Positions 2,844 to 25,048 of a stretch of DNA of 25,859 bases are shown here, piece after piece (position 1 is the first letter of the stretch; the number at the start of each line of letters is the position of its first letter). Made by a program: the position numbers and the translations under genes. Source of the DNA: Myxococcota bacterium (GTDB lineage: Bacteria; Myxococcota_C; UBA6777); assembly GCA_023150835.1 (NCBI GenBank), contig JAKLKB010000096.1:1-25859 (forward strand), written 5' to 3'. The notes beneath the pieces are model-generated. The model saw nothing but the letters and a program-made list of their open reading frames with translations, was not told the DNA's origin and ran no database searches.

Positions 2844-3152
2844 TCAGGCGTCTTGTAGATTCTCTGCAAGGCGAACAAGCAAGTCCAGCTTCTCATCGGT
2901 TAGGGTTCGAGCCTTCTCCAAAACATGCGAAATCTCTACAAGCCGAGCAACCTCGATTTGAAGATCTAGAAGAAGGCCCGGAGAAATAGAGAATACCTCA
3001 GCAATCTTCGCCAAAGTGTCCAAGCTGGGTTGTTTGATGCCTCTCTCTATGTTCGATATAGACCCTTTGGTGAGGTCTACCTTGTCTGCCAGATCTTGAA
3101 TTGTCCATCCACGACGTTTCCTCAACTCCCGAATTCGGGTGCCGATCTCCAT
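2844..3152 (-). CDS. XRE-family repressor (cI-like), 102 aa
   Basis: This is probably the master repressor of the element. ATG 3152 is preceded by GGAGGAGG at 5-nt spacing; an in-frame ATG 24 nt upstream lacks such a site. Residues 1-65 form a classic HTH_3 domain: RIRELRKRRGWTIQDLADKV, then TKGSISNIERG for the recognition helix and KQPSLDTLAKIAEVF. Residues 70-102 are helical (LEKARTLTDEKLDLLVRLAE) and could dimerise. There is no peptidase domain, so induction would not be by RecA-stimulated self-cleavage as in lambda CI. The gene is divergent from the Cro-like gene, with two operators between them. One operator touches the upstream edge of its own -35, which would allow self-activation. Confidence 0.92.
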   Translation of the reverse strand: MEIGTRIRELRKRRGWTIQDLADKVDLTKGSISNIERGIKQPSLDTLAKIAEVFSISPGLLLDLQIEVARLVEISHVLEKARTLTDEKLDLLVRLAENLQDA

Positions 3153-3187
3153 TTGCCTCCTCCTTACCAGAAACAATGTTCCCTATC

Positions 3188-3295: not shown

Positions 3296-3571
3296 ATGAC
3301 GCTAAAGGAATACCTAGAGACAACAAGAATAACACAAACGGATCTTGCCCGTACGGTGGGAGTATTCCGCGGAACGATACACAACATCGTTACAGGGCGA
3401 AAGGCTCCATCGATAGAACTCGCACTCAAGATCCAAGACGCGACGGATGGGGCTGTGACGGTGCGCGATCTTCTCCCCACGAACCATCCTGCTCTGCGTC
3501 TTCTGAGCGAGAAGGATCAAGGATCGAACAGACTACGCCCCGCGATGACAAGCAAAAGCCTCGGTAGGTAG
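3296..3571 (+). CDS. Cro-like small HTH regulator, 91 aa
   Basis: ATG 3296 follows AGGAGG at 9-nt spacing, while the longer frame from 3242 would start inside the promoter. Residues 1-60 are an HTH fold: LKEYLETTRITQTDLARTVG, recognition helix VFRGTIHNIVTGRKAP, then SIELALKIQDATDGAVTVRD. This resembles the phage Cro/C1 and YdaS-type groups. The C-terminal 30 residues are polar. It is transcribed divergently from the XRE repressor across paired operators and lies first on the rightward transcript leading to the primase. A Cro-like role, turning down the repressor and committing to replication, is inferred from this arrangement. A further operator-like site overlaps its first codons, suggesting autoregulation. 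Confidence 0.82.
   Translation: MTLKEYLETTRITQTDLARTVGVFRGTIHNIVTGRKAPSIELALKIQDATDGAVTVRDLLPTNHPALRLLSEKDQGSNRLRPAMTSKSLGR
3297..3313. promoter_or_regulatory. Operator-like site O5 over the cro start codon
   Basis: This site matches the O-type sequence GTATGCTAAAGGAATAC at 14 of 17 positions. The conserved right part is GCTAAAGGAATAC. It begins inside the start codon of the Cro-like gene, and binding there could block elongation or initiation. Confidence 0.4.
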
Positions 3572-3671: not shown

Positions 3672-6600
3672 ATGACTCCCAAGCAAGGGCAACCCGCCCG
3701 AAAGCACACGAACATTTCCACGATCCTGAGCCGTCTGGAAAGTGTCAAACCCACCCAAAAGCACGGACAATGGGAAGCCAAATGCCCCTCCCATGACGAC
3801 AAGCACCGCTCGCTTTCTATCGGAACCAGCACCGATGGCAACATCCTGTTGTTTTGCCACGCAGGTTGTTCTTTCGAGGACATCCTTTCGGACTTGCACT
3901 TGCCGAACGCGCCGTCCTCACCCCACGACCGACCGATCAAACAGCCCGAAGGCAAGGCATTTTCCACGGCCAACGAAGCGATCCAGCATTACCCTTGGGG
4001 CAAGCCTTCGGGAACGTGGATCTACATGCGAGAAGGCCAACCCGCCTGTGTGGTGTGCCGATGGGAAGGGCGTGATGATAATAAAATCATCCGCCCTGTC
4101 TCGAAGATCGGTGATCTCTGGTATCAAGCGCAGCTCGAAGGGCCGCGCCCGCTCTACCAAAACGAAGTACTCCCTCCAAACGGCCCGATCTATGTCGTCG
4201 AAGGCGAGAAAAAGTGCGTTGCAAACACCCAACAGGGCTTGTTTTCGGTGACGAGCGCAGGGGGCGCAAACGCCGCAAGATTAACCGATTGGACTCCGCT
4301 CCAAGGCCGCGACATCGTGATCCTCCCAGATGCCGATGTCTCAGGACAAAAATATGCACAAGAAGTGACGGAGATCCTCAAAGGGGTTGGCGTACGAACG
4401 ATCAAGATCGTCGAGCTTCCTGATCTCGAAAAGGGCGAAGATGTCTACGATTGGTATCACCGACTTGGCCGAACATCCGAGCAGATCAAGCAACTTGTGG
4501 CGGCAACCCCCTTTGTCTTCGAGGATACCGCTGGTCTTTCTGGCTCCGCTGACAAGGGGGCTTTTGAGAACTTCAAGCGTTGGCCGGAGCTTTATCGCAT
4601 CGCGCAAGGTCTGCCGATGGATCCCCTGCCCATTGTTCCAGAACGCCCGAAGGCTGGGGAGTTTCCACAGATCTCCCTCCATCCCGTGATCGAAGCGATC
4701 CACGAGATCACCCGCGCACCGTATGTTCTTTGCGCGCAGTCTGTTCTGGCCGCAACAGCGGTCGCAACGCAGCACATCGCCGACATCTCCATACCGGGTC
4801 TCGGTGGCCCCGAGACTTCTTCGCAGCCCACTTCGTGCTTTTTCGTCTCAGTCGCCCAATCCGGCGAGCGGAAGACTGCGATTGATCGTCTCGCAACACT
4901 CGGCATCCACGAGTATCAACAACAGTTGAAAGCCAACTATAAGCAAGAACTATTGGACTACAACGATGCGTTATGGCGTTGGCAAACCAGCGAAAAAGAA
5001 CGCTTACGCAACGAAAGTGGGCCACCCACCGAACCACCGAAACCACCGAAACAGCCGATCCTACAGGTCAAAGAACCTACGCAAGAGGGCTTGTTTCGCA
5101 TCCTCAAGGTCGGACAGCTTGCCCAAGGTCTCTTAAACGACGAAGGCGGTACGTTTCTCGGTGGTTTCTCGATGTCAAAAGAACAACGGATGCGTACCGT
5201 GAGCACGCTCAATAAGCTGTGGGATGGCGGGGATCTGGATCGCCCAAGAGCCGCAGATTACGAAGTGTTGAGTGGGCGGCGCTTGTCGTTGCATTTGCAG
5301 ATCCAGCCGAAAGCCAGCGCCGATCTGCTTGCGGATGGGATGTTGACGGATCTGGGGTTTTCGGCGCGTTGTTTGGTGGCCGATCCCGAAAGCACCATCG
5401 GAACGCGCTTTTTACGACCCACTCCAGAGGTTGCACATCGTTGGGTGCGATGGTTTGCGGACAGGTTGAAGGTCTCTCTCCAACACAAAGCGACGCTGGA
5501 CGAAGACGGAGATCTCCGCCCTCCCACGTTGCAGCTAGAAGGCGAAGCGTTGCGCTTGTGGGGGGCCTTCCACGACGAGATCGAAGCGATGATGCCGAAG
5601 CATCGTGAGATCATGGGGTGGTTGGGGAAAGCACCGCAACATGCGCTGCGTTTGGCGGCCCTGTTGACGGTGTTTCAAGACCCACGTGCGACGCATCTTC
5701 CAGCAGCGGCCATCGAGGAGGGGATCGCGCTTGTGCGCTTCTATCTGAGCGAGCAACTACGCGCCAATGCAGCACGACCCACCGAACAAGAAGAACTCGC
5801 GGATCTTTTGCTGCGATGGCTGCACGAAAAATGGGGTGAGCAAAAGATCTCAGCGCGGGATATCTGTCGCAAAGGCCCAACGAAGCTACGCAAGACCGCT
5901 GTGGCAAAACATACGATCATGCTGCTGGTGGAGCGGGGATATCTTCAACCGCTGTCAGGCTCGCATCTGATCCAAGGCGAAAAACGCAATCAATGTTTTG
6001 CCATCACGGATGGTTTTTCGGGGGGGGTTGCTCCTGTCGCAAATGGCGCAGCAAGCGTCGCGGAAGGTGTCGCAAATCGCGTCGCGGAAGGTGTCGCAAA
6101 AAGACCAATCGAAAAACATCAAGAGAAACAAGAGAATAGCGGTCGTGTCGCAAGTGTCGCAGGTGTCGCAACACACAGCGGGCTTTCGGGGATGGATGGG
6201 TCATACACGACCTCTTTACAGCCATCGGTCAGAGGCGTCGCAACACACCGTGAGCCTTCGGGGTTGGAAGCTGCTATGGGTGGTGTCGCAGCACCTGTCA
6301 CGATTGTCGCAAACAGCGTCGCAATGTTTCCATCGGAAAAAGTGCAACAAAAGCAAACTGATAGAGAAGGTGTCGCAGGTGTCGCAACTGTCGCAACACA
6401 CGGCGCTACTTCGGAATCAAGAGATCCGCTCCTTTCCTTGGCAACTGGGAGCGTGGGTTCTGTCGCAAGCAGTGTCGCAAACCGTGTCGCAAAGGTAATG
6501 ATGCAAAAGACCCACTCTCTGCAAGGCGAAGCAGGAAGTGTCGCAAGTGTCGCGGGCGTCGCGCAACTTTCCGAGACGACGGGTTCGGTAGCCTTCCAAT

Positions 6601-6878
6601 CCAAGTATCGAGGGAATCATAAAGAGACCTCTTCGGAACGTGATATCGAAACCTTTGCGACAGTTGCGACAGTTGCGACAGAACATCCGATACTTCCCGC
6701 AAGTCCTTCTGCTACAAGCCTTTTCTTGCGCTCAGAAAGAGAGCGTGGGGTTGCGACAGAGCTTGCGACGGTCGCGACAGAGCTTGCGACGGTCGCGACA
6801 GAGCTTGCGACAGCGTTTGCGGATGAGGTGTGGGAAATCGAAAGCTCCATCGATGACGGGAGGTGGGGTCGTGGCTAA
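3672..6878 (+). CDS. Replication primase: CHC2 zinc finger, TOPRIM and DUF3987-type region, repeat-coded tail
   Basis: This protein would prime and drive replication of the element. ATG 3672 is preceded by AAGGA. Residues 30-80 carry a CHC2-type zinc finger (Cys38, His41, Cys62, Cys66). Residues 170-265 carry a TOPRIM domain with VVEGEK (Glu177) and PDAD (Asp220, Asp222). Residues about 310-770 resemble the DUF3987 replication region, including LLNDEGGTFLGG, then LHLQIQPKASADLLADG and LTDLGFSARCLV. From about residue 785 to 1050 the protein becomes low complexity, with VA-x-VA and VATVAT repeats encoded by ordered GTCGCA and TTGCGAC repeats. The domain order is typical of phage and plasmid primases. 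The tail could bind DNA, or exist only because the DNA repeats lie there. The next gene overlaps its stop. Confidence 0.9.
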   Translation: MTPKQGQPARKHTNISTILSRLESVKPTQKHGQWEAKCPSHDDKHRSLSIGTSTDGNILLFCHAGCSFEDILSDLHLPNAPSSPHDRPIKQPEGKAFSTANEAIQHYPWGKPSGTWIYMREGQPACVVCRWEGRDDNKIIRPVSKIGDLWYQAQLEGPRPLYQNEVLPPNGPIYVVEGEKKCVANTQQGLFSVTSAGGANAARLTDWTPLQGRDIVILPDADVSGQKYAQEVTEILKGVGVRTIKIVELPDLEKGEDVYDWYHRLGRTSEQIKQLVAATPFVFEDTAGLSGSADKGAFENFKRWPELYRIAQGLPMDPLPIVPERPKAGEFPQISLHPVIEAIHEITRAPYVLCAQSVLAATAVATQHIADISIPGLGGPETSSQPTSCFFVSVAQSGERKTAIDRLATLGIHEYQQQLKANYKQELLDYNDALWRWQTSEKERLRNESGPPTEPPKPPKQPILQVKEPTQEGLFRILKVGQLAQGLLNDEGGTFLGGFSMSKEQRMRTVSTLNKLWDGGDLDRPRAADYEVLSGRRLSLHLQIQPKASADLLADGMLTDLGFSARCLVADPESTIGTRFLRPTPEVAHRWVRWFADRLKVSLQHKATLDEDGDLRPPTLQLEGEALRLWGAFHDEIEAMMPKHREIMGWLGKAPQHALRLAALLTVFQDPRATHLPAAAIEEGIALVRFYLSEQLRANAARPTEQEELADLLLRWLHEKWGEQKISARDICRKGPTKLRKTAVAKHTIMLLVERGYLQPLSGSHLIQGEKRNQCFAITDGFSGGVAPVANGAASVAEGVANRVAEGVAKRPIEKHQEKQENSGRVASVAGVATHSGLSGMDGSYTTSLQPSVRGVATHREPSGLEAAMGGVAAPVTIVANSVAMFPSEKVQQKQTDREGVAGVATVATHGATSESRDPLLSLATGSVGSVASSVANRVAKVMMQKTHSLQGEAGSVASVAGVAQLSETTGSVAFQSKYRGNHKETSSERDIETFATVATVATEHPILPASPSATSLFLRSERERGVATELATVATELATVATELATAFADEVWEIESSIDDGRWGRG
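6036..6563 (+). repeat. Ordered GTCGCA repeat array, plus orientation
   Basis: Seventeen exact GTCGCA copies and four GTCGCG copies occur, all in the same codon register (Val-Ala). Three modules recur: a close group, exactly 54 nt, then three copies spaced 9 nt apart. The groups end at 6093, 6318 and 6486; the triplets start at 6147, 6372 and 6540. The next copy after the first two triplets starts exactly 72 nt on. The regular pattern is iteron-like. Confidence 0.85.
6655..6811 (-). repeat. Inverted arm of the GTCGCA array (TTGCGAC on plus strand)
   Basis: Seven TTGCGAC and two TCGCGAC copies occur at 6655, 6664, 6673, 6751, 6763, 6772, 6784, 6793 and 6805. They are the reverse complement of the left arm's GTCGCAA and are read in frame as Ala-Thr. 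The polarity switch lies between 6563 and 6655. Confidence 0.85.
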
Positions 6879-7293
6879 ACGGTATCTCAAAGGGCTGCAC
6901 TTGACCGCTGCGGATCTCGCATCGGGGATCAAGGCGGCAAGTCGTCGCCCCTCTCCAGAGTCGGCGGCATTTCTCAAGGTTCTCGAAACGGCGTCGGGTG
7001 TTTGTGGTGAAACGGCGTTGTTGAACAGGTTGAGGGAGGGATGGCGGCCAAGCCTCGATAACCTCCTTGATGCGGGCCTCGATGCTTTGGCTTTGCGTTG
7101 GATGCCTGAAGGAGCCATCGAGATCAAGATCGACGGTCGGAGTGTGAGGATCAGCAGTCATCGTTTTGTCGATGTCATGCACCAGATCGCCGAATTACCT
7201 GCGCACGAACGCCAAGAGTGGTTGGTGGAATTCGTGCGCGTGCAGTCCCTTCTACCCGGATGTATACGTCGACTACAAAGAGTATCTATTTGA
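6871..7293 (+). CDS. Unrecognised 140-aa protein coupled to the primase
   Basis: GTG 6871 is chosen because GGGAGG lies 7 nt upstream and the codon overlaps the primase stop by 8 nt; an in-frame ATG at 6853 would place that ribosome site inside the gene. I do not recognise the family. The protein begins AKRYLKGLHLTAADLASG, is mostly helical with a short beta pair (GAIEIKIDGRSVRISSH, about residues 85-105), and ends in a basic segment. Close coupling suggests a replication accessory such as an origin-binding or loading factor, but this is only context. It is the last gene of the rightward replication operon before an AT-rich gap. Confidence 0.65.
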   Translation: MAKRYLKGLHLTAADLASGIKAASRRPSPESAAFLKVLETASGVCGETALLNRLREGWRPSLDNLLDAGLDALALRWMPEGAIEIKIDGRSVRISSHRFVDVMHQIAELPAHERQEWLVEFVRVQSLLPGCIRRLQRVSI

Positions 7294-7418
7294 TTGGTTT
7301 ATATTATTTATATAGAGAACATATTTACATGAACAAATAGCCAGTATTCTACGCAGAAACAACACAATCGACTTGCGTCCGCTCATCCGCAGATTGCAGC
7401 AAGCGAATTTCCAGATCT
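7294..7418. other. AT-rich gap between replication genes and next gene
   Basis: The first 50 nt or so are markedly AT rich (TTTATATTATTTATATAG). They are unlike the GC-richer flanks and could be an easily melted segment or terminator-associated DNA. No gene is seen. The GTCGCA array lies about 480 bp upstream. Confidence 0.4.
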
Positions 7419-8014: not shown

Positions 8015-10927
8015 ATGACCATCGACACCGTTCAAAGTAAGGCCAATCCACAGCAGCTCGAAGCGATTCTCGCAACAGATGGCCCTGTTCTGATTATCGC
8101 AGGCCCCGGCTCTGGCAAAACATTTACACTTGTTGAGCGGATTGTTTACCTTATCACGCACAAAGGTGTTGCTCCTGAGTCATTGCTTGTTGTGACTTTT
8201 ACGGACAAGGCTGCTCGCGAACTTACGACACGCATCTCGAATCGACTGTCCGAGTTGGGTGTCCACTTCAACCTCAACGAGATGTACCTCGGAACCTTCC
8301 ACTCGATCTGTCTGCGCTTGCTCGAAGATTACCGCGAGTTCACGCGACTCAAGCGCAGCTTTACGCTGTTCGATGAGTTCGACCAACAGTACTTCCTTTA
8401 CCAGCACATCAAGGACTTCCGTTCGTTGCCCGATGCTCGACTTGTGATGGGTGAAGAGCAATCTGGCCGATGGACGCAATCAGAAAACCTCCTCAAATGG
8501 CTGAATAAGGTAAGAGAGGAAGCACTCAACCCCGATACGTTGGCGGCAGCCCCCGAAGCGGAGATCCGAGCGCTCTCCGCATGCTTCGCGAAATACCAAC
8601 AGATGCTGCTCGAACATAACTCGCTCGACTTTTCCGGCATCCAGTACGAAGCGCTGCAACTCTTAGAAAAGCATCCGCATGTGCTCGCGCAGCTACGCGA
8701 AAAGCTAACGTATCTGATGGTCGATGAGTACCAAGACACCAACACCATCCAAGAACGTATCCTTTTGTTGCTTGCAGGTGAGCGCCGAAATCTGTGTGTG
8801 GTGGGTGACGACGATCAAGGCTTGTATCGCTTTCGTGGAGCGACGATCCGTAACATTCTGGAATTTCCCTCCTTGTTTCCCGATACACCGTGTAAACGGG
8901 TCAAACTCACCGTCAATTATCGCTCACACCCAGATATCATCCGTTTCTACAACAAGTGGATGCGTGCGCAAGACTGGGGCGATGGGACGCAAGTGTTTCG
9001 TTTTGCCAAAGAGATCGTGCCGCGTCACGGTACATTTCCCGAAGTTCCCACGACGTTGCGTTTGGCCGCAAAAGACGAAAAGGACGAGACCACAAGTTGG
9101 CACGGTGAGGTACTCGCATTCCTTCATGGCTTACAAGCATCAGGGCGATTGGCTGACTGGAATCAGGTCGCTTTCCTCTTTCGTTCCGTGAAAAATGACA
9201 GGGTCGTCGCTCTTGCGCGTTTCCTCGAAGAGCAAGGCATCCCAGTGTTCTCACCCCGTTCCAATATGTTCTTTGATCGAGAAGAGATCCGCTTGATGAT
9301 CGGTGCCTTGATTTTCCTTTTCCCGCAATTCTCGGCGGTGCGGGTTTGGGCCGAAGGAGCAAAGTTAGCCGTCTGGGACTACTACGATCACCAGTGCTTC
9401 AAGCCTTTTACGGATGAACTGCGAAAGCCTGAAAACAAAGCGTTGTGGGACTGGGCGAGACCGCTGGCAAAACGCCACTTGGCGTTGACACAGAACACGG
9501 ACTATGCCTTCTCAGGCTTGTTTTACCAACTTCTCCAATTCCCTTTGTTCTCGCGATTTCTGACCGAAGAAGCCATCCTCGGCGTGGACAAAGGCCGCGC
9601 AGCACGCAATCTCGGTACTTTTTCCAAGCTGATCACCAAATTCGAATACTTGCACCACATCAGCGTCTTGAGTACCGAATACCTCGAAAAAAACATCCGC
9701 GATCTATTCAACCAATTTCTACGCTTCCTTGCGGACGGAGGGATCGGCGAATACGAAGACGAGGCCGAGTACGTCCCCAAAGGTTGCGTGTCTTTTCTCA
9801 CGATCCACCAATCCAAGGGGCTGGAATTTCCGATTGTGGTGTGTGGCTCGCTGGAGGCCGTACCACGCAAACAATACAGCGACTTGGACGTTTTGCTCGA
9901 AAACGGCGACTACCTCTCCAAAAAACGCTTTGAGCCATTGGATGACATCAAGTTCTTTGATTTCTGGCGATTGTTTTATACAGCCTTTTCTCGTGCACAA
10001 AACCTGTTGGTCTTGGCTGCTCAGGAACGACAAGGACACGGAAAGTCGCCCTCCAAGTATTTCGAGCCGTTGTTTTACGAGCTACCCAGTTGGCGCGACT
10101 TGGATCTCTCGGTGCTGACTTTCGAGGCGATCAAGCAGATGAACCTAAAGCGCGAATACTCGTTCACTTCGCACATCACGGTGTTTGAGAACTGTGCGGA
10201 ACAGTACCGCTTTTTCAAAGAGTTGGAATTTACTCCCATCCGCGAAAGCCCGATGTTGTTTGGAACTTTGGTACACCAAACCATCGAGGACATCCACAAG
10301 GCCGTTTTGCGCGGTGAAGAATCCACCGTAGACACCGACGCAATCAACGTCTGGTTCTCAGCCAACTACGCGATGCTTTCCAAAAAAGAACGTGTGTACC
10401 TCGCTCCAAGCTCGCAAAAGGCGGCGCTTGAGCATGTTCTGCGCTACTACAAGCGCGAAAACGGCAATTGGGAACGCATCAAGGAAGCCGAAGTCGAGAT
10501 ATCGTTGGTCAAAGAGCAATACATCTTGAGAGGAAACGTCGACTTGATCCGTGGTGAGCATGGAACGGTTGAGATCGTCGACTTTAAGTCGGAGAAAAAA
10601 CCCGACATGGACAAAGATCGAGAGCGTCTCAAGCAGTACCAACACCAACTGGAAGTGTACGCCCACCTTGTTGAACAACGCACAGGCCAAAAGGTCAGCC
10701 GAATGCACCTGTACTACACGGGCGAAGACAGCGGCAATCCCTATGTTTCGTTCACGAAAGACGACCGTTCTATCGGCAAAACCATCGCACGATTCGATGA
10801 TATCGTGGCGCGTATCGAGCATCAGGACTACCAGATCGCCGCACGACCAGCCAAATTGTGCACCAACTGCGATATGCGTGCGTATTGTGATTCCAAAAAT
10901 TGGAAATTTAGGAAAAAGAATCCATGA
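8015..10927 (+). CDS. SF1 UvrD/AddA-like helicase with C-terminal RecB-family Fe-S nuclease domain
   Basis: This is an ATP-dependent DNA translocase fused to a nuclease. Helicase motifs in order: Walker A AGPGSGKT (residues 29-36), motif Ia TFTDKAARELTTR, motif II VDEYQDT (Asp237, Glu238), motif III GDDDQGLYRFRGA, motif IV NYRSHPDI, motif V TIHQSKGLEFPIVV and motif VI FYTAFSRAQN near 655-665. The C-terminal domain shows PD-(D/E)XK signatures GNVDLI (Asp843), VDFKSEKK (Asp856, Lys858) and YQHQLEVY. It also has the Fe-S cysteine set of AddB/Cas4-like nucleases: Cys727 in NCAEQYRF, then Cys949, Cys952 and Cys958. ATG 8015 follows GGAGG. The stop overlaps the methyltransferase start as ATGA. By context it is a component of a defence complex rather than housekeeping repair. 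Confidence 0.93.
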   Translation: MTIDTVQSKANPQQLEAILATDGPVLIIAGPGSGKTFTLVERIVYLITHKGVAPESLLVVTFTDKAARELTTRISNRLSELGVHFNLNEMYLGTFHSICLRLLEDYREFTRLKRSFTLFDEFDQQYFLYQHIKDFRSLPDARLVMGEEQSGRWTQSENLLKWLNKVREEALNPDTLAAAPEAEIRALSACFAKYQQMLLEHNSLDFSGIQYEALQLLEKHPHVLAQLREKLTYLMVDEYQDTNTIQERILLLLAGERRNLCVVGDDDQGLYRFRGATIRNILEFPSLFPDTPCKRVKLTVNYRSHPDIIRFYNKWMRAQDWGDGTQVFRFAKEIVPRHGTFPEVPTTLRLAAKDEKDETTSWHGEVLAFLHGLQASGRLADWNQVAFLFRSVKNDRVVALARFLEEQGIPVFSPRSNMFFDREEIRLMIGALIFLFPQFSAVRVWAEGAKLAVWDYYDHQCFKPFTDELRKPENKALWDWARPLAKRHLALTQNTDYAFSGLFYQLLQFPLFSRFLTEEAILGVDKGRAARNLGTFSKLITKFEYLHHISVLSTEYLEKNIRDLFNQFLRFLADGGIGEYEDEAEYVPKGCVSFLTIHQSKGLEFPIVVCGSLEAVPRKQYSDLDVLLENGDYLSKKRFEPLDDIKFFDFWRLFYTAFSRAQNLLVLAAQERQGHGKSPSKYFEPLFYELPSWRDLDLSVLTFEAIKQMNLKREYSFTSHITVFENCAEQYRFFKELEFTPIRESPMLFGTLVHQTIEDIHKAVLRGEESTVDTDAINVWFSANYAMLSKKERVYLAPSSQKAALEHVLRYYKRENGNWERIKEAEVEISLVKEQYILRGNVDLIRGEHGTVEIVDFKSEKKPDMDKDRERLKQYQHQLEVYAHLVEQRTGQKVSRMHLYYTGEDSGNPYVSFTKDDRSIGKTIARFDDIVARIEHQDYQIAARPAKLCTNCDMRAYCDSKNWKFRKKNP

Positions 10928-12798
10928 CAAAAACAACCGTCCCAAATCAGACCGCGCTACCACTCGCTGCACCGAACCAAGGCGCCACCAACGTCGAGAA
11001 GTTCGAATTCGAGCCGATCAAAGGCTATCCGATGCTGAATTGGCGCGGCAAACGTCCGTTCACTTCAACACAGTATTACCCAGCGCAACTAAAGGAAGTC
11101 CACGGCGAAGAAGTCGACGGCTGGCGCAACAAAATTTTCTGGGGCGACAACCTTCAAGTGATGAGCCATCTGCTTAAAGAATTTCGGGGAAAGGTTGATT
11201 TAATCTATATCGACCCTCCTTTCGATTCTAAAGCTGATTACAAAATGACAGTCACCACAAAAGGAAAATCAATATCTAATAATTGGTTATCCTTTGAAGA
11301 AAAACAGTACGGTGATATTTGGGTAAACGATGAATACTTACAATTCATGTTTGATCGTATTGTCATCGCACGAGAGCTTATTTCTTCTTCCGGTGCATTT
11401 TTTATGCATTGTGACTGGCATAAGTCTCATCATTTACGTTGCCTATTGGATGAAATCTTTGGTTTTTCAAATTTCAGAAACGAAATTATTTGGGCATATC
11501 CAGGTCGAGAAATGCATATAGAGAAAAAATATAACTCAAAACACGACACGATTCTATTCTATGCAAAATCAGAAAGTACTCGCGTGTATATGAAGCAAAT
11601 TGCCATTACATACGACCGCGAAGAGAGGCTGAGAACTTTGCGAAGAAAAGTCCACCAAGATGTTGACGGGCGAGAATGGGTGTGGGAGACGCGTGGTCAA
11701 GCGACAGGACAAGAACCATACAAACGTTATATCGACGAAATTCTTGAAGATGGCAAAGCTATAAACGATTACTGGAACGACATTGAATATTCCGGGATAG
11801 ATGATTGTTGGGATGACATTCAATTTCTTCGCGGAAACGACCCAAAAAGAACTGGATACCCAACTCAAAAACCCGAGTCTCTTCTAGAGCGGATTGTAAA
11901 AGGGCATACACAGGAGGGAGGGCTAGTCTTCGATTGCTTTATGGGTTCGGGGACAACGCAGGCTGTTGCGATGAAGCTTGGGCGTCGCTTCATCGGAGCG
12001 GACATCAATTTGGGAGCGATCCAAACAACGACAAAACGACTCATCAGCGTTGGCGGCGAAATCACACAAAGATCGCTGGATAACCAGACCAAACACTTTA
12101 CAGGATTCGAGGTGTACAACGTCAACCACTACGACATCTTCCGCAACCCTGTTCAAGCCAAGGAGTTGCTGATCGAGGCATTGGAGGTGCAGACGCTGGA
12201 GTTCAGTACCGTGTTTGATGGCGAAAAGGACGGTCGCATGGTCAAGATCATGCCGATCAATCGGATCGCAACGCGGGCGGATTTGAACGAGTTAATTGCA
12301 GGCTTTGACTACAAAACATGGGAACAAAAGCAGATCGAAAGTCCAAATCGTTCCGTCGAAAAACTTACGCTTGTCTGTATGGGACACGAACCCGATCTGG
12401 CTGCCCAACTGGAATTGGCCGTCAAGCCGTTCAAGATCGACGTCGAAGTGGTGGATATCCTGCGGGACAAAGCTGATTTGGAATTCAAACGCGATTCCCA
12501 AGCCCAACTCGCCATCAAGGGAGGCAAGCTGATTATCGAGAAGTTCTACCCGATGAACCTCCTACAAAAACTCTCTCTTCAAAAAGAGGCGGTGGAGGAT
12601 TGGAAAGAGTTGGTCGAGTCTGTGCTGGTGGATTGGAATTACGATGGTGCGGTGCTTCAACCAGCAGAGTTGGACATTCCCGACAAAAACGAACTGGTCA
12701 AGGGCGAGTACAAGATACCAAAAGACGCGGGAACGATTCGCGTGAAGATCACAGACTTGCTCTCGGAGTCATGGGAAGGAAGCATCGACAATGGCTAA
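10924..12798 (+). CDS. mod: Beta-class DNA methyltransferase, type III Mod-like
   Basis: This is probably an adenine-N6 (or cytosine-N4) DNA methyltransferase that marks host DNA for the adjacent Res. Motif IV, DPPF, is at residues 97-100 and motif I, DCFMGSGTT, begins at residue 337. This order (IV before I) is that of beta-class and type III Mod enzymes. Between them lies the target-recognition region. Residues about 400-624 form an additional domain, possibly for Res docking. Bases from about 11165 to 11930 are clearly AT richer than both flanks, matching the recognition region and suggesting it was exchanged by recombination. The gene overlaps the helicase by 4 nt and Res by 8 nt. The exact target sequence cannot be read from the gene. 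Confidence 0.92.
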   Translation: MTKTTVPNQTALPLAAPNQGATNVEKFEFEPIKGYPMLNWRGKRPFTSTQYYPAQLKEVHGEEVDGWRNKIFWGDNLQVMSHLLKEFRGKVDLIYIDPPFDSKADYKMTVTTKGKSISNNWLSFEEKQYGDIWVNDEYLQFMFDRIVIARELISSSGAFFMHCDWHKSHHLRCLLDEIFGFSNFRNEIIWAYPGREMHIEKKYNSKHDTILFYAKSESTRVYMKQIAITYDREERLRTLRRKVHQDVDGREWVWETRGQATGQEPYKRYIDEILEDGKAINDYWNDIEYSGIDDCWDDIQFLRGNDPKRTGYPTQKPESLLERIVKGHTQEGGLVFDCFMGSGTTQAVAMKLGRRFIGADINLGAIQTTTKRLISVGGEITQRSLDNQTKHFTGFEVYNVNHYDIFRNPVQAKELLIEALEVQTLEFSTVFDGEKDGRMVKIMPINRIATRADLNELIAGFDYKTWEQKQIESPNRSVEKLTLVCMGHEPDLAAQLELAVKPFKIDVEVVDILRDKADLEFKRDSQAQLAIKGGKLIIEKFYPMNLLQKLSLQKEAVEDWKELVESVLVDWNYDGAVLQPAELDIPDKNELVKGEYKIPKDAGTIRVKITDLLSESWEGSIDNG

Positions 12799-15613
12799 AC
12801 GCTCAAAGTCCAAAGCCGTCGCATCACTCGACTTTGCTTTTTTTCAAGCGCTGTGGTTTTTCTATCAAGACAACCGTGGAACCATTCGGAAACACTACAA
12901 AGAACTCACGAAAAAGTTTTTGGATTTTAACAATCCTGAAAGAAATCCGAAGGCATTTCTTCGGCAACCGCAATTCGAAGCACTTGAGATCTATATCTTT
13001 CTGAAAGAGTTTCTTGATAATGCCAAAATAGAAGAGATACTTCATCAATGGTTTGAGAAAAAAGGCTCATTCGCAGAGCGCAAGGAAGGCGGTATTGCAT
13101 CGAATCAAGGAAGCTTCTTCGATTTTGTAAATCGGGAACAATATGAAGCGGTGTTTGCTGCGATGCGTAAAAACTCTCGCACATACCCAAACTACATCTT
13201 CGCGCTGACGATGGGAACGGGTAAAACCATCTTGATGGCGACCTGCATTTTCTATGAGTTTCTTTTGGGAAATAAGTTCAGCAAAGATACACGTTATTGC
13301 CACAATGCTTTGGTGTTTGCACCAGACAAAACGGTGCTTCAGTCTCTAAAAGAAATCGAATCCTTCGATCTGACTCGCGTTGTGCCACCTGAATACGTGA
13401 ACTTCCTCACTTCTCATCTGCGCTTTCATTATCTCGAAGATGCCGGAACTTCGCTGGATACGTTAGATCATTCTCGCTTCAATATCATCGTTTCCAACAC
13501 CCAAAAGATCATCCTCAAGCGTCGCCACAAAGACAAAACGGCTACGGATAAACTGTTTGGCGCGACGGGCGAGATACTGGCAACGGGTGTTTATGCCGAT
13601 GCAGCCGATCTCTATAACCTCGATCAGCCCGAAGAAGAGGGAGAACTGACAACAAACCAACGCTTCGAAAAGCTGCGCCGTTTGGAACAGCTTGGTATTT
13701 ATGTGGACGAGGCCCACCACGCCTTCGGAAAAGCTCTTGCCAAAGATATGGGCGTGGGGGCAAAGGATACGGATACGAGTCTACGCACAACCATCGACAC
13801 CCTCGCTGCGAGCCTCAACAAATCGGGTACGCGTGTCGTCGCTTGCTACAACTACACTGGAACGCCTTACGTGGGCCGCGAAGTCCTACCGGAAGTGGTC
13901 TATGCTTATGGACTCAAAGAAGCCATCGAAAAGGGGTTTCTTAAGAAAGTGATGTTGCATGGCTACACCAACCCCCGAACCAACGAGTTTGTCGATATCG
14001 CCATCGAAACCTTCTTAAAAGAATCTCCGACAACTCCGCCCGAAGGGTTGCTACCGAAGCTGGCCTTTTTTGCATCCACCATCGAAGAACTGACGGAGGA
14101 ACTCAAACCAGCCGTAGAGCGGGCGCTTGTGAAGCACAACATCCCAACGTCGCGCATTTTGGTGAACGTTGGGGACGATAAGATCACAAAAAACGATGAT
14201 TTAAGAGAGTTCTACCGTTTGGATCAGCCAGATTCGGAAAAGCAATTCATTCTTTTGGTCAACAAAGGCCGCGAAGGTTGGAATTGTCGCTCTTTGTTCG
14301 GTGTTGGACTGTTCCGCGAACCCAAATCAAAGGTGTTTGTGCTTCAAGCGACGATGCGTTGCCTACGATCCATTGGACAGGCTCAATACACCGGCCACGT
14401 CTTCCTTTCCGAAAGCAACCTCAACATACTCAACGATGAGCTTCAACAGAACTTCCACATCAGCGCGGATGAGCTACAAACGGTTGCGAGCGACAAAGTA
14501 CGTGTCCAAGTCCGCGTGACGGAACCTACCGTCAAGATCAAGTTGGTGCGGGTACGCAAGCGTTACGAGATCAAAGAGAAACGGCTCACAGCAGGGCAAG
14601 CGTTGGGTCTTGATCGTTCAAACAAAGAGGCTTGGAAAGCCCTCGTTGAAAAGTACCTTTTTCTTGAGATACAGCAGGCGGGGTTGACCGCTGCGGATGC
14701 CGCTCGATCTCGATCCAGCCGAACCTTCGACTTGACCGAGCGCCGCGAAAAGCGAACATTCTCACGGATGACGCTTGTGGCCGAGATCGCTCGCTATCTG
14801 AACCGAAGCCCGTTGGAGATCGAAGATCTGCTGGACAAAACGAAGGAAGGGACGGAGGAATTGGTCGCGATGGTCAACGAGTACAACGAGTTGTTGTACG
14901 ACGAGGTGATCCCGCGCTTGTTTCACCAACTGTATGATCTTATCGAGGAACAACAAAAAGAAGAACACGAAGTCGATCTGGTCAAAAGCCCCCCAAACGG
15001 CTATTACGAGGTGACAGCGGCCAGAGACAAGATTGTTTACAGGGATATCTTTGCTCTTTCTCGTGAAGAGCGCGCAAAACTCTTACCGAACGGCGAGTAC
15101 GCGGCGACGGCTGCTGAGGGCGATACCGCGTACCTAAAAAACTTGGAGATCATCGATCAAGAGCGCGAAAAAAGTTTTCACCTCGATCCTTACTGCTTTG
15201 ATTCAGGTTCGGAAAAGTCGCTTTTCTTGGATTTATTGCGCGAGCAGCGTGTGAAGAAGATCTACTTTACCGGGATGTTAACTCACGGCCAATCAGACTT
15301 TTTTATTCAGTACATCGATCCAGACTCGAATACGGTGCGTAGCTACTATCCAGACTTTATCTTCCAACGTGAAGAAGAAGATGGAAGCCACAAGTACGTC
15401 CTTGTGGAAGTGAAAGCCGACAACCAGATCGAAAAAGCCGTGGTACAGGCAAAGAAGTCTTTTGCGCAGCAGATCGCGGTGGCAAGCGGCATGGAGTATC
15501 AGATCCTTAAATCTACCGATGCGGATAAAAAAGCCTACCAAAGCCTTCTTTCGCCACCCACAGAGGACTCTCCACAGGGAAGCGGTCACTCCAAGCCTGA
15601 CTTATTCTCTTGA
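12791..15613 (+). CDS. res: Type III-like restriction subunit: DEAD/DEAH helicase with C-terminal nuclease
   Basis: This is the restriction subunit of a type III-like system. Walker A is TMGTGKT (residues 140-146) and motif II is DEAHH from residue 306. Later SF2 elements include NKGREGWNC and QATMRCLRS (motifs V and VI area). The C-terminus holds a PD-(D/E)XK nuclease: YPDFIF (Pro854, Asp855) and VEVKAD (Glu873, Lys875). Length (940 aa) suits type III Res proteins. ATG 12791 lies inside the end of mod. The first 350 nt are AT richer than the rest, perhaps reflecting exchange together with the mod recognition region. A regulatory protein or second subunit is not seen downstream; the next gene is separated by about 240 nt. 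Confidence 0.92.
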   Translation: MAKRSKSKAVASLDFAFFQALWFFYQDNRGTIRKHYKELTKKFLDFNNPERNPKAFLRQPQFEALEIYIFLKEFLDNAKIEEILHQWFEKKGSFAERKEGGIASNQGSFFDFVNREQYEAVFAAMRKNSRTYPNYIFALTMGTGKTILMATCIFYEFLLGNKFSKDTRYCHNALVFAPDKTVLQSLKEIESFDLTRVVPPEYVNFLTSHLRFHYLEDAGTSLDTLDHSRFNIIVSNTQKIILKRRHKDKTATDKLFGATGEILATGVYADAADLYNLDQPEEEGELTTNQRFEKLRRLEQLGIYVDEAHHAFGKALAKDMGVGAKDTDTSLRTTIDTLAASLNKSGTRVVACYNYTGTPYVGREVLPEVVYAYGLKEAIEKGFLKKVMLHGYTNPRTNEFVDIAIETFLKESPTTPPEGLLPKLAFFASTIEELTEELKPAVERALVKHNIPTSRILVNVGDDKITKNDDLREFYRLDQPDSEKQFILLVNKGREGWNCRSLFGVGLFREPKSKVFVLQATMRCLRSIGQAQYTGHVFLSESNLNILNDELQQNFHISADELQTVASDKVRVQVRVTEPTVKIKLVRVRKRYEIKEKRLTAGQALGLDRSNKEAWKALVEKYLFLEIQQAGLTAADAARSRSSRTFDLTERREKRTFSRMTLVAEIARYLNRSPLEIEDLLDKTKEGTEELVAMVNEYNELLYDEVIPRLFHQLYDLIEEQQKEEHEVDLVKSPPNGYYEVTAARDKIVYRDIFALSREERAKLLPNGEYAATAAEGDTAYLKNLEIIDQEREKSFHLDPYCFDSGSEKSLFLDLLREQRVKKIYFTGMLTHGQSDFFIQYIDPDSNTVRSYYPDFIFQREEEDGSHKYVLVEVKADNQIEKAVVQAKKSFAQQIAVASGMEYQILKSTDADKKAYQSLLSPPTEDSPQGSGHSKPDLFS

Positions 15614-16259: not shown

Positions 16260-16969
16260 TTAAGCATGTAATGATGCGTTGTAATGATGGATGAAAAGCC
16301 AGAGAGCACCGAGATGATTCTCGAATTTCTTGGAGAAAGAAAGTGTTTTTCGAACAAGTCTTGCGACCCTCTGGCGAAGCGTACAGTTCCATCGTTCGAT
16401 ACCATTGGTCTTTCCGCTGTCTTTGCCAACAGCGTGGTGTCTTTGTGAGGGTAAGACTTGTTTGTAAGCTTCCCAAAAATCCGTATGGCAGACGGCGCGC
16501 TCACGATAACTTTCTGGTAAAGAGTCCCAAAGTGCCTGAGCGCTTGTGCGGCTTCGATCTCCGACGTGCATCCCGACGATTTCCTTGGAGTCTGCGTCGA
16601 ATGCCAGCCAAATCCATTGTTTGTTCTCCTTGTTTTGCACAAACGACCAAGCCTCGTCGAGTTGGAGCCTTAGCGGGCCGTTTTTTTTTCCGCGATCGCG
16701 GCTTGCTTCGGCACTTCTTTGAAGACGCGGTTGACGTAACGTTGAACCCAAACATCCGAGATGCCTGTCACGCGGGCGATACCGGCCATCGGAACTCTTT
16801 CCAAGAGCAGCTTGTCGACAAGTGCCCATGTTTCGGATGGAATTCTTTTGACGGTCGGGTTCTCGATAAACTGCCGCCCGCAAGAACGGCAAAGATAGCG
16901 CTGTTTACCGTTGTGAATCTTACCGTTCCGCACGATGGTCGTTCCGTTGCACTCTGGACAGTTTGGCAT
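16260..16969 (-). CDS. insB: IS1-family transposase InsAB', made by -1 frameshift
   Basis: This is the fused transposase read from InsA into the second frame. The slippery site is a run of nine A followed by C on the minus strand (16689-16680), allowing a -1 shift at A-AAA-AAC as in IS1. The fused product would be about 236 aa, close to the 232 aa of IS1. After the shift the protein continues GPLRLQLDEAWSFV with the first catalytic Asp. It then has HTDFWEAY with the second Asp and ERWNCTLRQR with the catalytic Glu, followed by the family-typical VRKTLSFSKKFENH. The N-terminus supplies the zinc finger and HTH domain. The stop lies 8 bases from the left end of the element. Confidence 0.88.
16670..16969 (-). 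CDS. insA: InsA, zinc-finger HTH regulator of the IS1-family element
   Basis: This 99-aa protein binds the IS ends and acts as a repressor of transposition in IS1. It begins MPNCPECNGTTIVRNG and has a zinc-ribbon with CPEC and CRSCGRQF. A helix-turn-helix region follows (VPMAGIARVTGISDVWVQRY). It ends EKKTAR at a stop just past the slippage run, so the unshifted product is InsA and the shifted product is the transposase. GGAGG lies upstream of ATG 16969. Confidence 0.9.
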   Translation of the reverse strand: MPNCPECNGTTIVRNGKIHNGKQRYLCRSCGRQFIENPTVKRIPSETWALVDKLLLERVPMAGIARVTGISDVWVQRYVNRVFKEVPKQAAIAEKKTAR

Positions 16970-18362: not shown

Positions 18363-19634
18363 ATGTCCCTCAAAGGCAAATCGAACCAAGGGGAACTCCC
18401 CATCAAGGCCCAAAGCAATCCAACCCCAGTGACGGGCTACTTTGTCAATGGCGAATCGCACCGCTCCGTGTCTATCGATTCTCTCACCCCAAACAAGGGG
18501 AAGAACATGAACAGCGGAACGGGTAAAAAGCCCCCATCCAAGCCATCAACCAAGCCCACAAAATCCCCAAGCAAGGGCTACAAGTCCAATCCAGACGGCG
18601 ATGCCTCTTCTGGCTTCACGGTGAAGATCAAAGAGTCCATGCAGAACATCAAGGACTTCGCCAAGTCACTCGAACCCGCCAAGCGCGGGCGAAAGCAGGG
18701 ACGAATTGCAGAAGCGGCCCAAGAGACGCTTTCATCCACGGAGAAGTTTCTCAAGAAAACGGCTTCTCTCGCGGGTGGAAACGCCGAAAAGATGGCCAAA
18801 GAAGTGCAAGCATATACCGAAGATCTCAAGTCCTTTATGAAAAAGTCCATCGCTGCCGCCAAAGACACCCCAGAAAAACAACTCGCTGAGTGTAAAGAGC
18901 AGCTCAAGTCCTGCGACTCTGGTTCTTCGGTAGAAGGAGTTGGCAAATCGACAGGCTCCAAAGATGTGGACGGTCTCGTTTTGAAGATCGGCGACAGCGT
19001 GATCCGCTCCGATGACGCCCGATACCGAAACAACTACGGCACAGTGATCGGTGTGGCCAAAAATGAGCGCGTGATCGTTCGTTGGTCGGACAAGGCGATC
19101 ACCAACCACAAGGCCCACCAAAGCCTCCGCCGTGCGGCTCCCTACAAGTCCAACCCCAATAGCGCTTGGGGCGAGATGTTCAAGCAAGTAGGCGCTGGAC
19201 TCGGCTCCTTCTCCTTGGCCGGTTTGATGCACGCAGGATTGCGCGCACTCTTCGATAAGTTCGCGCCGCAGATGATCCAAAATTACGAAGGCATCGTGGA
19301 TACAGGCATCAGCCTCGTCTCCATCGGTGGGACGGGCGCTATCGCACTTCATCCCAAACTTGAACAGGTTCGCCCCGGTTTCTGGTCATTCTTGGCCTTG
19401 CGTTTTATCAACCATGCTGGGCGGCATCTTCCCAAGAACCTGCCACCCGCCTATCCGCAACTTCTCGGTGCCGGGGCAACCTCTACGCTCGACGGCCTCA
19501 TCGATCTCGACGGTGTTCTGGGTGGTTCCGAGGTGGTGGTGGATGTATTTGACCCAAGCGGACACCTCCCTTTACCAAGACCTTCTCGACGCTCTCTCGC
19601 TCCCCAAGATTGGGAACGACGGGCGCTTCTCTAG
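18363..19634 (+). CDS. Putative membrane-associated structural-type protein, 423 aa, with possible C-terminal frameshift
   Basis: The family is not recognised. ATG 18363 follows CAGGAGC at 6-nt spacing; ATG 18508 with GGGGAAG upstream is an alternative start. Residues 48-80 are Lys/Pro/Ser rich. Residues 90-175 are helical and charged. Residues 203-245 form a small beta domain of KOW or SH3 type (GLVLKIGDSVIRSDDARY, then YGTVIGVAKNERVIVRWSD). Residues 270-390 are hydrophobic and glycine rich (GAGLGSFSLAGLMHAG, then GISLVSIGGTGAIALHP) and may be membrane embedded. The last 28 codons look unnatural, whereas the next register carries LTQADTSLYQDLLDALSLPK up to a stop at 19650. One extra base near 19548-19550 would explain this. 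It heads an operon of membrane and beta-rich proteins, so a virion role is possible. Confidence 0.65.
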   Translation: MSLKGKSNQGELPIKAQSNPTPVTGYFVNGESHRSVSIDSLTPNKGKNMNSGTGKKPPSKPSTKPTKSPSKGYKSNPDGDASSGFTVKIKESMQNIKDFAKSLEPAKRGRKQGRIAEAAQETLSSTEKFLKKTASLAGGNAEKMAKEVQAYTEDLKSFMKKSIAAAKDTPEKQLAECKEQLKSCDSGSSVEGVGKSTGSKDVDGLVLKIGDSVIRSDDARYRNNYGTVIGVAKNERVIVRWSDKAITNHKAHQSLRRAAPYKSNPNSAWGEMFKQVGAGLGSFSLAGLMHAGLRALFDKFAPQMIQNYEGIVDTGISLVSIGGTGAIALHPKLEQVRPGFWSFLALRFINHAGRHLPKNLPPAYPQLLGAGATSTLDGLIDLDGVLGGSEVVVDVFDPSGHLPLPRPSRRSLAPQDWERRALL

Positions 19635-19683
19635 CCTGCGCGGTGCGTAAACAACGCCAAAACGAGACAAGGAAACGACGACG

Positions 19684-20703
19684 ATGGCAAATAAAAAACA
19701 ACCCCGCGCTGAAGAAACACCTCAAATGCCGCAAGAACATAGCAACACCAAGAAGTTTTTCGCAGCCCTTGGCGGTCTTTTGCTGGGTCAAGTCACAGGC
19801 GCGGTCGCTGCACAAGCCTCCACCAAGTGGGGGAGCCTCTTTTCGACGGTCGCAAGCGGTCTCGTCGGTGGAGAGGGCGCTGCAGTGGCCAACCGCAACG
19901 GCAATCCGCTTGGACACGCCGCAGGCTTCGGGATGATGGGAAGCGCGATCCTCAACGGACTCAAGGCACTCTTGGGCCTGAGCAAGAACAACATGTTACG
20001 CGATGTCGGCTCTTTGGAGCGAGCAGTACAAACCGCCCCAAGCACAACATCCACCACGACAAACGCCGCGAATGCTGCGAACACAACAGGCACAACGCCC
20101 GCTGCTCTTCCTAGCGGCCAAGGCGCAGCCACGACACCGCCCGCAAGTGGCGGCGTCAAAGAGCCTCCATCGTCTGCCCAAACAACAGGTGCAGCGCCCG
20201 CCAAGAAGACGCTTGAAGTCAAAGCATACGTTGAAGGCGAAACGATGCGATTCAAGACGCCGGGCGGATTCGTGCAAGAAAACGTGATCGAGATCCAAGA
20301 GGACGGATGGATCGCCACCAAAACGGGCAATGATATCCACCTCCTGATCGACAAGGAGCGCATGGCTTGGAAGGCCGAGGACGGCATGGTCATCCTCAAA
20401 GGACACGCCATCTACAACATCGAGTTTGCCAGCGACGAAGAGAAAAAAGTGGGCGTCGAAAAACCCTTCTACTTCTTCGACGACAGCCAAGGCGTGAGCG
20501 GATTCATCGACTTGGACGACGGCATCAGCGGATTCATCGACTTAAACGACGGCATCAGCGGCCTTGTGGATCTCGATAGCGGTGAGATGAGCGGCCTTGT
20601 GGATCTCGATAGCGGCGATGTCGGCGGATTGATCGAATTGAACGACGATCCTCTCGATGGCTACGCAGATCCTTATGACGATGACGAAGAATACGACGAT
20701 TAA
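19684..20703 (+). CDS. 339-aa protein: hydrophobic N-terminus, Thr/Ala linker, beta domain, acidic repeat tail
   Basis: The family is not recognised. ATG 19684 follows AAGGAAA. Residues 24-45 are hydrophobic (FFAALGGLLLGQVTGAVAA). The following Gly/Ala-rich stretch to about 105 could also associate with membrane. Residues 115-175 are a Thr/Ala/Pro-rich linker. Residues 178-265 look beta-rich (EVKAYVEGETMRFKTPGGFV, then EIQEDGWIATKTGNDIHLLI). From residue 270 a tandem acidic repeat of the form SGFIDLDDGI occurs five times, ending in an Asp/Glu tail (YDDDEEYDD). Similar modular proteins occur as surface or anchoring components, but the exact role is unknown. The phrase GLIDLDG also appears near the end of the preceding protein, hinting at shared ancestry or interaction. 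Confidence 0.7.
   Translation: MANKKQPRAEETPQMPQEHSNTKKFFAALGGLLLGQVTGAVAAQASTKWGSLFSTVASGLVGGEGAAVANRNGNPLGHAAGFGMMGSAILNGLKALLGLSKNNMLRDVGSLERAVQTAPSTTSTTTNAANAANTTGTTPAALPSGQGAATTPPASGGVKEPPSSAQTTGAAPAKKTLEVKAYVEGETMRFKTPGGFVQENVIEIQEDGWIATKTGNDIHLLIDKERMAWKAEDGMVILKGHAIYNIEFASDEEKKVGVEKPFYFFDDSQGVSGFIDLDDGISGFIDLNDGISGLVDLDSGEMSGLVDLDSGDVGGLIELNDDPLDGYADPYDDDEEYDD
20488..20650 (+). repeat. Tandem coding repeat of an acidic 10-12-aa unit
   Basis: Units of 30 to 36 nt encode SGFIDLDDGI, SGFIDLNDGI, SGLVDLDSGEM, SGLVDLDSGDV and GGLIELND. The first two and the next two DNA copies are nearly identical, indicating recent duplication. Confidence 0.8.
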
Positions 20704-20714
20704 GCGAAGTTTCG

Positions 20715-20760
20715 CACAAATATAAACTTGGCTTTCGTACAAGCATAAACTTGGCTTTCG
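20715..20760. repeat. Two tandem copies of a 23-bp intergenic repeat plus partial third
   Basis: Copies at 20715-20737 and 20738-20760 share ATAAACTTGGCTTTCG, and a third begins CACAAG at 20761. GGCTTTC in the second copy can pair with GAAAGCC at 20773-20779. They may be protein-binding sites, a transcript-processing signal or a weak terminator between structural genes. Confidence 0.7.
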
Positions 20761-20826
20761 CACAAGTAAGCAGAAAGCCTTCCAACGGTCGGCAATATGC
20801 CCAAAGACCAAAAGGAAAAAAGGCCC

Positions 20827-21516
20827 ATGACCCAGAAGATTACCCAAGCCCACAGCGGCAACCGCATCAAGAACCGCAGCCCTCAAAGTCCCCGTGGTGT
20901 TGCGATGGTGGAAGACATCATCCTCCGCGACACTCCCCTCTACCAAGACAAAGGCGAGACCGAGGTGGGTACGGGCCTTGTCTTATTCAAAAACCAAGAT
21001 CGCATTGGCGAATCCAAGCAGTTTCTCTGCAATCTCGAAGAAGCTGGCAAAGTCCCTTCGGGTCACGACTTGGAAGTGCGCGAACTCTCGTGTTATCTGA
21101 ACTTCCGCGACGACTTCCCTCTCGTCGATGACGTACCTACCCCAACAGCAGGCAAAGCCACATCCGAAGAACTCTACGATCTCGTGATGAACTGCGGTTA
21201 CATCAAGATCACGAAAGCGGGCAAGTTGACGGTCGCCGAGATCCCCATGCGTCTGATCCCTCAAATCAACGGCGTGATCGGCTCGGCGGGTGCTGCGGGT
21301 GAAGCGAAGTACACCAACGGTCGCGGCAAACTCAAGCTCAAAGAACCCATCGAACTCAAAGCGGGCGAGACTTTCGAGGTCGTTTTCAAATTCTTCGACG
21401 AAGACAATGGTGCGGGATACACCCCCAGCACCCGCTTCGATGCGGCGGATGAAGTCGTGAAAAACTTCAGCTTCCACATGCACTGTGTCCGTGTTGCTGA
21501 GCCTGTGATCGGCTGA
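20827..21516 (+). CDS. Beta-rich protein, candidate capsid protein A (229 aa)
   Basis: The family is not recognised with certainty. ATG 20827 is preferred over ATG 20797 because AAGGAAAAAAGG lies just before it. After a basic 30-residue start the protein is a dense run of beta strands: TGLVLFKNQDRIGESKQFLC, then LEVRELSCYLNFRD, KLTVAEIPMRLIPQ, PIELKAGETFEVVFKFFD and FSFHMHCVRVAEPV at the end. Length and strand pattern suit single jelly-roll capsid proteins of tailless viruses, which often come as adjacent pairs. The next gene has a similar size and the same C-terminal pattern. There are no tailed-phage features. An alternative is a non-virion secreted or surface beta protein. The capsid role is inference. 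Confidence 0.6.
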   Translation: MTQKITQAHSGNRIKNRSPQSPRGVAMVEDIILRDTPLYQDKGETEVGTGLVLFKNQDRIGESKQFLCNLEEAGKVPSGHDLEVRELSCYLNFRDDFPLVDDVPTPTAGKATSEELYDLVMNCGYIKITKAGKLTVAEIPMRLIPQINGVIGSAGAAGEAKYTNGRGKLKLKEPIELKAGETFEVVFKFFDEDNGAGYTPSTRFDAADEVVKNFSFHMHCVRVAEPVIG

Positions 21517-21646
21517 TCCCATCTCGACGTGAATAACCGCGAGGGGCAGGGAGCCTGTATCTCTGGCCCTCATCCTGCCTTCTGCTCGTCCCGCCCCCTC
21601 GCTCATACATCGAAAAATCCCGTCCTTCGGGCCATAGGAAAAAGAG

Positions 21647-22324: not shown

Positions 22325-22325
22325 G

Positions 22326-24466: not shown

Positions 24467-24503
24467 GGGCCGCTCTTATCCTCTGGCAAAAGTATGCGTT
24501 CCA

Positions 24504-24544
24504 GCGAGATGCCCCCCTTTGTGGGCAGATATCGCCTGCTTTTT
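24504..24544 (+). terminator. Weak terminator-like hairpin with T-run
   Basis: GCGA-x3-GCCC (24504-24514) pairs with GGGC-x5-TCGC (24523-24535), and five T follow at 24540-24544. The internal loop makes it weak, so it may only reduce expression of the following genes. Confidence 0.35.
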
Positions 24545-24571
24545 CCTCTTCTTCGAAAGGATTGTTGAAAC

Positions 24572-25045: not shown

Positions 25046-25048
25046 GCG

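Follow-up and report, generated by a model that had tools for sequence, protein, structure and literature searches.

A probable iteron origin translated as the Val-Ala tail of a DUF3987 primase-helicase gene in a Myxococcota contig

Why should the gene for a primase-helicase end in an array of one short DNA word, GTCGCA, first in one orientation and then in the other? We investigated this in the window, the whole stretch of 25,859 nucleotides analysed here (contig JAKLKB010000096.1 of a Myxococcota bacterium), whose relevant features are collected in Table 1. We conclude that the array is probably an iteron replication origin, bound by the winged helix of the primase-helicase itself and translated as its Val-Ala tail.

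Table 1. Coordinates of the repeat array, the gene that contains it and nearby features of the window.
Feature	Position	Strand	Details
HTH_3 repressor gene	2844-3176	-	Divergent from 3296..3571
HTH regulator gene	3296..3571	+	Just upstream of the primase gene
Primase-helicase ORF	3672..6878	+	1068 aa, intact; weak CHC2-like zinc finger, Toprim-like domain, DUF3987, C-terminal winged helix, Val-Ala tail
DUF3987 AAA+ core, predicted MCM-like fold	4662..5783	+	AlphaFold2 pLDDT 89.5; PDB matches are MCM helicases
C-terminal winged helix	5784..6005	+	Residues 705-778; proposed origin-binding domain; from secondary structure and fold matches
RKGPTKLR motif	5868-5891	+	Within the winged helix; motif type associated with TNGCA-type words
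Left arm	6036..6563	+	17 GTCGCA and 4 GTCGCG; word count
Unit u1	6081..6173	+	Words at 12-nt spacing, 54 nt, then 9-nt triplet 6147/6156/6165
Unit u2	6306..6398	+	Layout as u1; triplet 6372/6381/6390
Unit u3	6474..6566	+	Layout as u1; triplet 6540/6549/6558
Spacer, last forward to reverse triplet	6564..6654	.	98 nt between word starts; length as in G001
Reverse triplet	6655..6680	-	TTGCGACAG TTGCGACAG TTGCGACA; 9-nt spacing
21-nt tandem repeat, three copies	6749..6811	-	TTGCGAC and palindromic GTCGCGAC words; TRF score 119
Most AT-rich 60-mers of the window	7271..7350	.	Up to 80% AT; about 460 nt past the array; possible melting region, assignment uncertain

The gene lies downstream of a divergent pair of HTH genes, with GTATTCC/GGAATAC words inside the gap of the pair and next to it, and GTATTC again near 7340, an arrangement that looks like a phage-type switch and operator. 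Three overlapping genes at 8015-15613 encode a UvrD helicase with a PD-(D/E)XK nuclease, an N6/N4 DNA methylase (type III-like) and a ResIII helicase with a TnsA-like nuclease domain, and are probably a restriction or defence island with an ancillary helicase-nuclease. An IS1-type transposase is encoded at 16260-16969 on the minus strand in two overlapping frames (an InsA-like zinc ribbon, then a DDE domain), as in frameshifted IS1. The same-strand gene run at 18363-25811 gave no convincing Pfam or PHROG match and could encode the structural proteins of a virus or satellite not yet described; ORF 19684-20703 contains at 20497-20561 a 30-nt tandem repeat, which gives the protein a C-terminal end of SGFIDL(N/D)DGI-like acidic repeats. 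Neither an integrase nor an AlpA-type activator was found among the window ORFs scanned with Pfam, and the contig ends do not overlap, so that the contig gives no proof of a circle.

The primase-helicase covers the DUF3987 profile (PF13148) almost fully (Pfam, E=6.6e-64, profile positions 2-361 of 364, residues 349-698), with a Toprim_2 match just under the cut-off (Pfam, E=5e-4) and PHROG matches to DNA helicase (E=6e-39) and DNA primase (E=1e-24). The predicted model of the DUF3987 core matched the MCM structure 6mii (Z 18.8, rmsd 3.7, 273 residues), which agrees with the earlier prediction that DUF3987/YfjI proteins, the family of the window gene, are helicases of mobile elements (PMC5862659). 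No sequence relatives of DUF3987 were found in the PDB. DUF3987 thus models as an MCM-like AAA+ fold with a C-terminal winged helix, and a common fold alone does not establish function. The winged helices of related primases have been suggested to recognise origins (PMC5862659). For the window gene, the winged helix modelled by itself has low confidence (pLDDT 70); its best fold matches are generic winged helices (Z 7-8), with weak matches also to the MCM4 winged helices (Z 7-8), and the P4 origin-binding domain is not prominent among them.

The word counts, 9-nt triplets, 54-nt and 72-nt distances and reading frame reported in the original prediction are all exact in the sequence. GTCGCA starts in the left arm at 6036, 6069, 6093, 6147, 6156, 6165, 6237, 6285, 6306, 6318, 6372, 6381, 6390, 6462, 6474, 6486 and 6540, and GTCGCG at 6057, 6081, 6549 and 6558; the right arm has seven copies of TTGCGAC (6655, 6664, 6673, 6751, 6763, 6784, 6805) and two of TCGCGAC (6772, 6793). 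All of these words lie in the frame of the gene, where the left arm is read as V-A and the right arm as V/L/F-A-T, TTGCGAC remaining constant in the latter while the first codon varies between GTT, CTT and TTT. Exactly 54 nt separate 6093 from 6147, 6318 from 6372 and 6486 from 6540, and exactly 72 nt separate 6165 from 6237 and 6390 from 6462. Forward and reverse triplet sets are both present 3' of the helicase domain, and the inner spacer is 52% AT. Rfam gave no match.

Comparison of the units identified the left arm as three diverged tandem copies of a single unit, which the original prediction had overlooked. Because u1 to u3 arose by tandem duplication, the 54-nt regularity is partly inherited: the distances themselves stand, and the regular order built on them is in part not independent evidence. 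Identity between the three units is 90-97% in the words, against 42-54% in the linkers, and third codon positions are identical at 24 of 30 sites in the words versus 19 of 48 in the linkers (p=0.0005).

Protein selection alone had been thought a poor explanation of this geometry, and recoding bears this out. GTCGCA and TGCGAC together occur 23 times, against a mean of 3.9 and a maximum of 12 in 20,000 synonymous redraws with the protein fixed and codons taken from the gene body; permuting the tail's own codons among equal residues (20,000 runs) gave a mean of 13.1 and a maximum of 22. Six of the seven close pairs of TGTCGCAA in the 7.56-Mb genome fall in the window array, and the reversed control pattern gave no close pairs in that genome. 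Such clustering of one short word beyond chance is a characteristic of iteron origins.

Within the phylum, five genomes are represented in our genome set, two of which have the gene. The only other tail of this kind from the genus belongs to the homologue in the congener, G001, and shows erosion: the tail is shorter, with a single unit, partly eroded words and about five exact ones. Its unit linker is identical to that of u1 at 33 of 48 positions. From the last forward to the first reverse word it measures 98 nt, equal to the window, with 55 of 92 spacer bases identical and no indel. The upstream part of the gene is identical at 294 of 328 positions while the spacer is so at 55 of 92, indicating rapid evolution of the tail, which spares its layout and words. 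The window array may be drifting or recently expanded. A second primase copy, 92% identical, was identified in the source genome (L009, G000:C178:3-1838), where the contig end cuts it before the tail; the element family thus has at least two copies there.

It is conceivable, though on balance unlikely, that the array is a once-functional origin decaying in the genus, the remnant of a domesticated element; this would be the same origin type, inactive here, and overlaps with our preferred explanation. The few exact words that G001 retains adjoin a ClpB-like gene, the second primase copy is truncated as described and the contig lacks an integrase, all of which would suit decay; against it, the words are the best-preserved part of the window tail, and the ORF is intact over all its codons.

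We investigated the distribution of arrays in DUF3987 genes sampled without regard to repeats from Gammaproteobacteria, Alphaproteobacteria, Burkholderiales and Acidobacteriota, scoring 7-mer arrays against dinucleotide shuffles. Significant arrays at p<=0.01 were found in 16 of 50 3' flanks, 1 of 50 5' flanks and 1 of 52 DUF3987 domains, and at p<=0.05 in 24 of 50 3' flanks and 3 of 50 5' flanks (3' versus 5', p=8e-5 and 3e-6, respectively). Around half of these unselected loci were without a significant array. The array words vary by lineage, and include GTCGCA, GTAGCA, AATAGC, TTAGCA, AACTGACA, CCCGACAA, GTGACAA and ACGCTAC, among others. A conserved array position beside the initiator gene, as found here, is a further characteristic of iteron origins.

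A scan of 84,980 genomes by DNA alone, with TGTCGCAANTGTCGCAANTGTCGCA, matched 47 loci from many phyla. DUF3987 was encoded in 24 of the 43 searchable genomes of this word-matched set. At 19 of the 47 loci, the array lay around 250-720 nt 3' of the DUF3987 domain, mostly starting 20-100 nt past the stop codon. Since there is about one DUF3987 gene per genome, this association far exceeds chance. The remaining 28 loci had no demonstrated DUF3987 neighbour, and some of them are low-complexity coding repeats. In a viral contig found through the word alone (L023), the array is likewise 3' of a DUF3987 gene. Exact inverted-triplet patterns gave no matches in viral contigs, and a similar pattern run on 385 alphaproteobacterial genomes recovered only the site in G008, which had already been chosen, with no matches in the controls; the inverted-triplet pattern is very specific, and too strict for a census.

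Several loci show the word in other settings. GTCGCA arrays were found directly after a DnaB-type helicase gene (L063:5183-5396) and across the 3' end of a D5_N/DUF5906 primase gene (L025:2157-2500), and the word is therefore not confined to DUF3987 elements. In two Acidobacteriota loci (L065, L106), GTCGCAA words lie 5' of the DUF3987 gene and TTGCGAC words 3' of it, both facing inwards. Long Cys-rich tandem-repeat ORFs of CDNCDNC type (L050:2036-2637, L017, L018) contain the same DNA word, apparently as a codon coincidence, with no primase link seen.

The comparison of homologues that was proposed with the original prediction shows conserved DNA spacing, under words and reading frames that change. 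In the TNGCA group, 9 nt is by far the commonest distance between words on the same strand. Inverted groups face each other across a gap of 30/31 nt in 13 loci (7 word-selected, 6 unselected), and this gap is identical under GTCGCA and GTAGCA. A gap of 41 nt was found in L180, and one of 42 nt, with an AT-rich spacer, between the inverted triplets directly after the DUF3987 gene of a Legionella oakridgensis plasmid, each around one helical turn over 30/31. AT-rich spacers are also present in L219, L104 and L189. A minority layout, with forward then reverse triplets around 90-120 nt apart, is shared by L097, L104, L198, L219, G001 and the window. On a circular Pseudomonas putida DUF3987 plasmid, the GC skew showed no switch at the array.

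Often the array occupies the opening codons of the following ORF, where it is read mainly in the VA frame whichever strand carries the word; some close relatives read it as SQ or CRK, so that the frame differs and the word stays. This is the opposite of a Val-Ala repeat retained with the hexamer destroyed by synonymous codons: the word is kept and the frame varies (VA, SQ, CRK, RQL). The array of L180, from the Acidobacteriota, is likewise inside the primase ORF, and the embedded array of the window is thus not unique.

The words are also associated with the protein. An RxGPxxLR motif, at the turn preceding the recognition helix of the winged helix, goes with TNGCA words in 12 of 18 versus 1 of 31 training loci (p=2e-6) and in 7 of 11 versus 5 of 27 held-out loci (p=0.017), the word regex and classes having been defined on the training loci after viewing them, the held-out effect being weaker and relatedness being partly controlled. 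Among the five held-out exceptions lacking the motif, four have a variant, VTPGxLRQK. Word similarity tracks similarity of the C-terminus (Mantel p=0.0005), also given DUF3987 similarity (p=0.001), and the window, with RKGPTKLR and GTCGCA, has the expected pairing. Taken comparatively, position, side-specificity, spacing and the association of winged helix and word support the original prediction of an origin in the 3' end of the gene, recognised by the primase.

Iterons commonly double as control sites, and initiation might take place elsewhere, with the array binding the primase or a small regulator for autoregulation, copy control or incompatibility, as P4 crr does, or for partition. We consider this improbable. 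The distance of the most AT-rich stretch from the array, a small ORF with its start at 6871 that overlaps the end of the primase gene, and the integrase genes beside some arrays (L045, L055, L019) would all fit it; however, the constant place directly 3' of the helicase-primase, the two inverted triplet sets and the pairing of winged helix and word reproduce the PICI/SaPI origin layout, and a partition gene was not recognised in the window. That the tail is a low-complexity Val-Ala-Thr linker grown by slippage, with the DNA regularity as a by-product, is very improbable and largely refuted by the frame changes, for although every copy is in the VA frame, u1 to u3 are clear tandem duplicates and the 9- and 12-nt spacings are codon multiples, synonymous recoding never reached 23 words, the word is constant across the V/L/F codons of the right arm and present as its reverse complement, relatives carry it outside genes or in other frames, and gap length is conserved while words change.

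On the preferred reading of the array as an iteron origin, a protein that joins a DnaG-type primase to an MCM-like DUF3987 helicase would use its C-terminal winged helix to bind the GTCGCA words, MCM-like helicase rings would form on the two triplet sets, on or near the array, the DNA would open, and the Toprim part would prime synthesis. We infer winged-helix binding, ring loading, melting and origin activity at the array by analogy with SaPI/PICI Rep, SCCmec Cch2 and P4 alpha. The left arm would have expanded through tandem duplication of one unit, and the origin, inside the primase ORF, would be read as Val-Ala/Val-Ala-Thr, a frame giving small neutral residues from either strand. In most relatives the origin would lie immediately beyond the end of the primase gene, often overlapping the start of the small ORF that follows.

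More tentatively, at somewhat below even chances, DUF3987 primase-helicases may form one family-wide replicon type across several phyla, with an MCM-like initiator that recognises, through its winged helix, an exchangeable word in fixed inverted 9-bp triplets, and with an origin frequently translated in the primase tail or the next ORF, one stretch being both protein and origin. If true, this would account for many database proteins with "VATVATVAT". DUF3987/YfjI proteins occur widely in integrative elements, satellites and plasmids; no origin for such elements was found in the literature searched, which also gave no match to the array strings or to VATVATVAT. Such an origin grammar, made up of a word, triplets at 9-nt spacing, an inverted gap of 30/31 nt and a position 3' of the gene, would make origins predictable from sequence, the protein-word code would become testable by swapping winged helices, and a replication origin could sit within coding sequence by using the single frame that is harmless in both orientations.

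The origin of phage lambda lies in the middle of gene O, as four longer iterons, which are bound by the product of that gene. The window would resemble it in having iterons within the coding sequence of their proposed binding protein, and differs in that the protein is unrelated and around 30 short words lie in a C-terminal tail. P4 alpha, like the window protein, joins a Toprim-type primase, a helicase and a C-terminal winged helix, for which repeat reading is proposed in the window, in one chain. The P4 helicase is of SF3/D5 type, and ori and crr are separate. The window gene falls outside the P4 type, having a DUF3987 (MCM-like) helicase, not D5_N/DUF5906, and an array inside the gene; P4 alpha provides a precedent for an initiator that reads repeats (PMC4234260). 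The description of DUF3987/YfjI proteins in PMC5862659 mentions no iteron. In SCCmec, Cch2 binds direct-repeat iterons with its C-terminal domain, and the related Cch is MCM-like (PMC7581432); the Cch2/CCPol-MP system shares with the window an initiator helicase, short direct repeats 3' of the gene and a C-terminal domain as reader (proposed in the window), and differs in its non-coding iterons, three AAGTG, and its separate primase protein (PMC7581432). The pri-rep-ori module of PICI/SaPI elements differs from the window, where the putative origin is inside the ORF, the helicase is DUF3987, the words are GTCGCA in 9-nt triplets, and the integrase and AlpA-type activator of such elements are not seen, although the element may extend beyond the contig. 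For SaPI/PICI Rep, two iteron sets form an ori immediately 3' of the rep gene (PMC6092414; Ubeda et al. as cited in PMC7581432). The window resembles these elements in the iterons directly 3' of the primase/helicase region, in their two sets and in an initiator with a C-terminal DNA-binding domain, which is predicted in the window.
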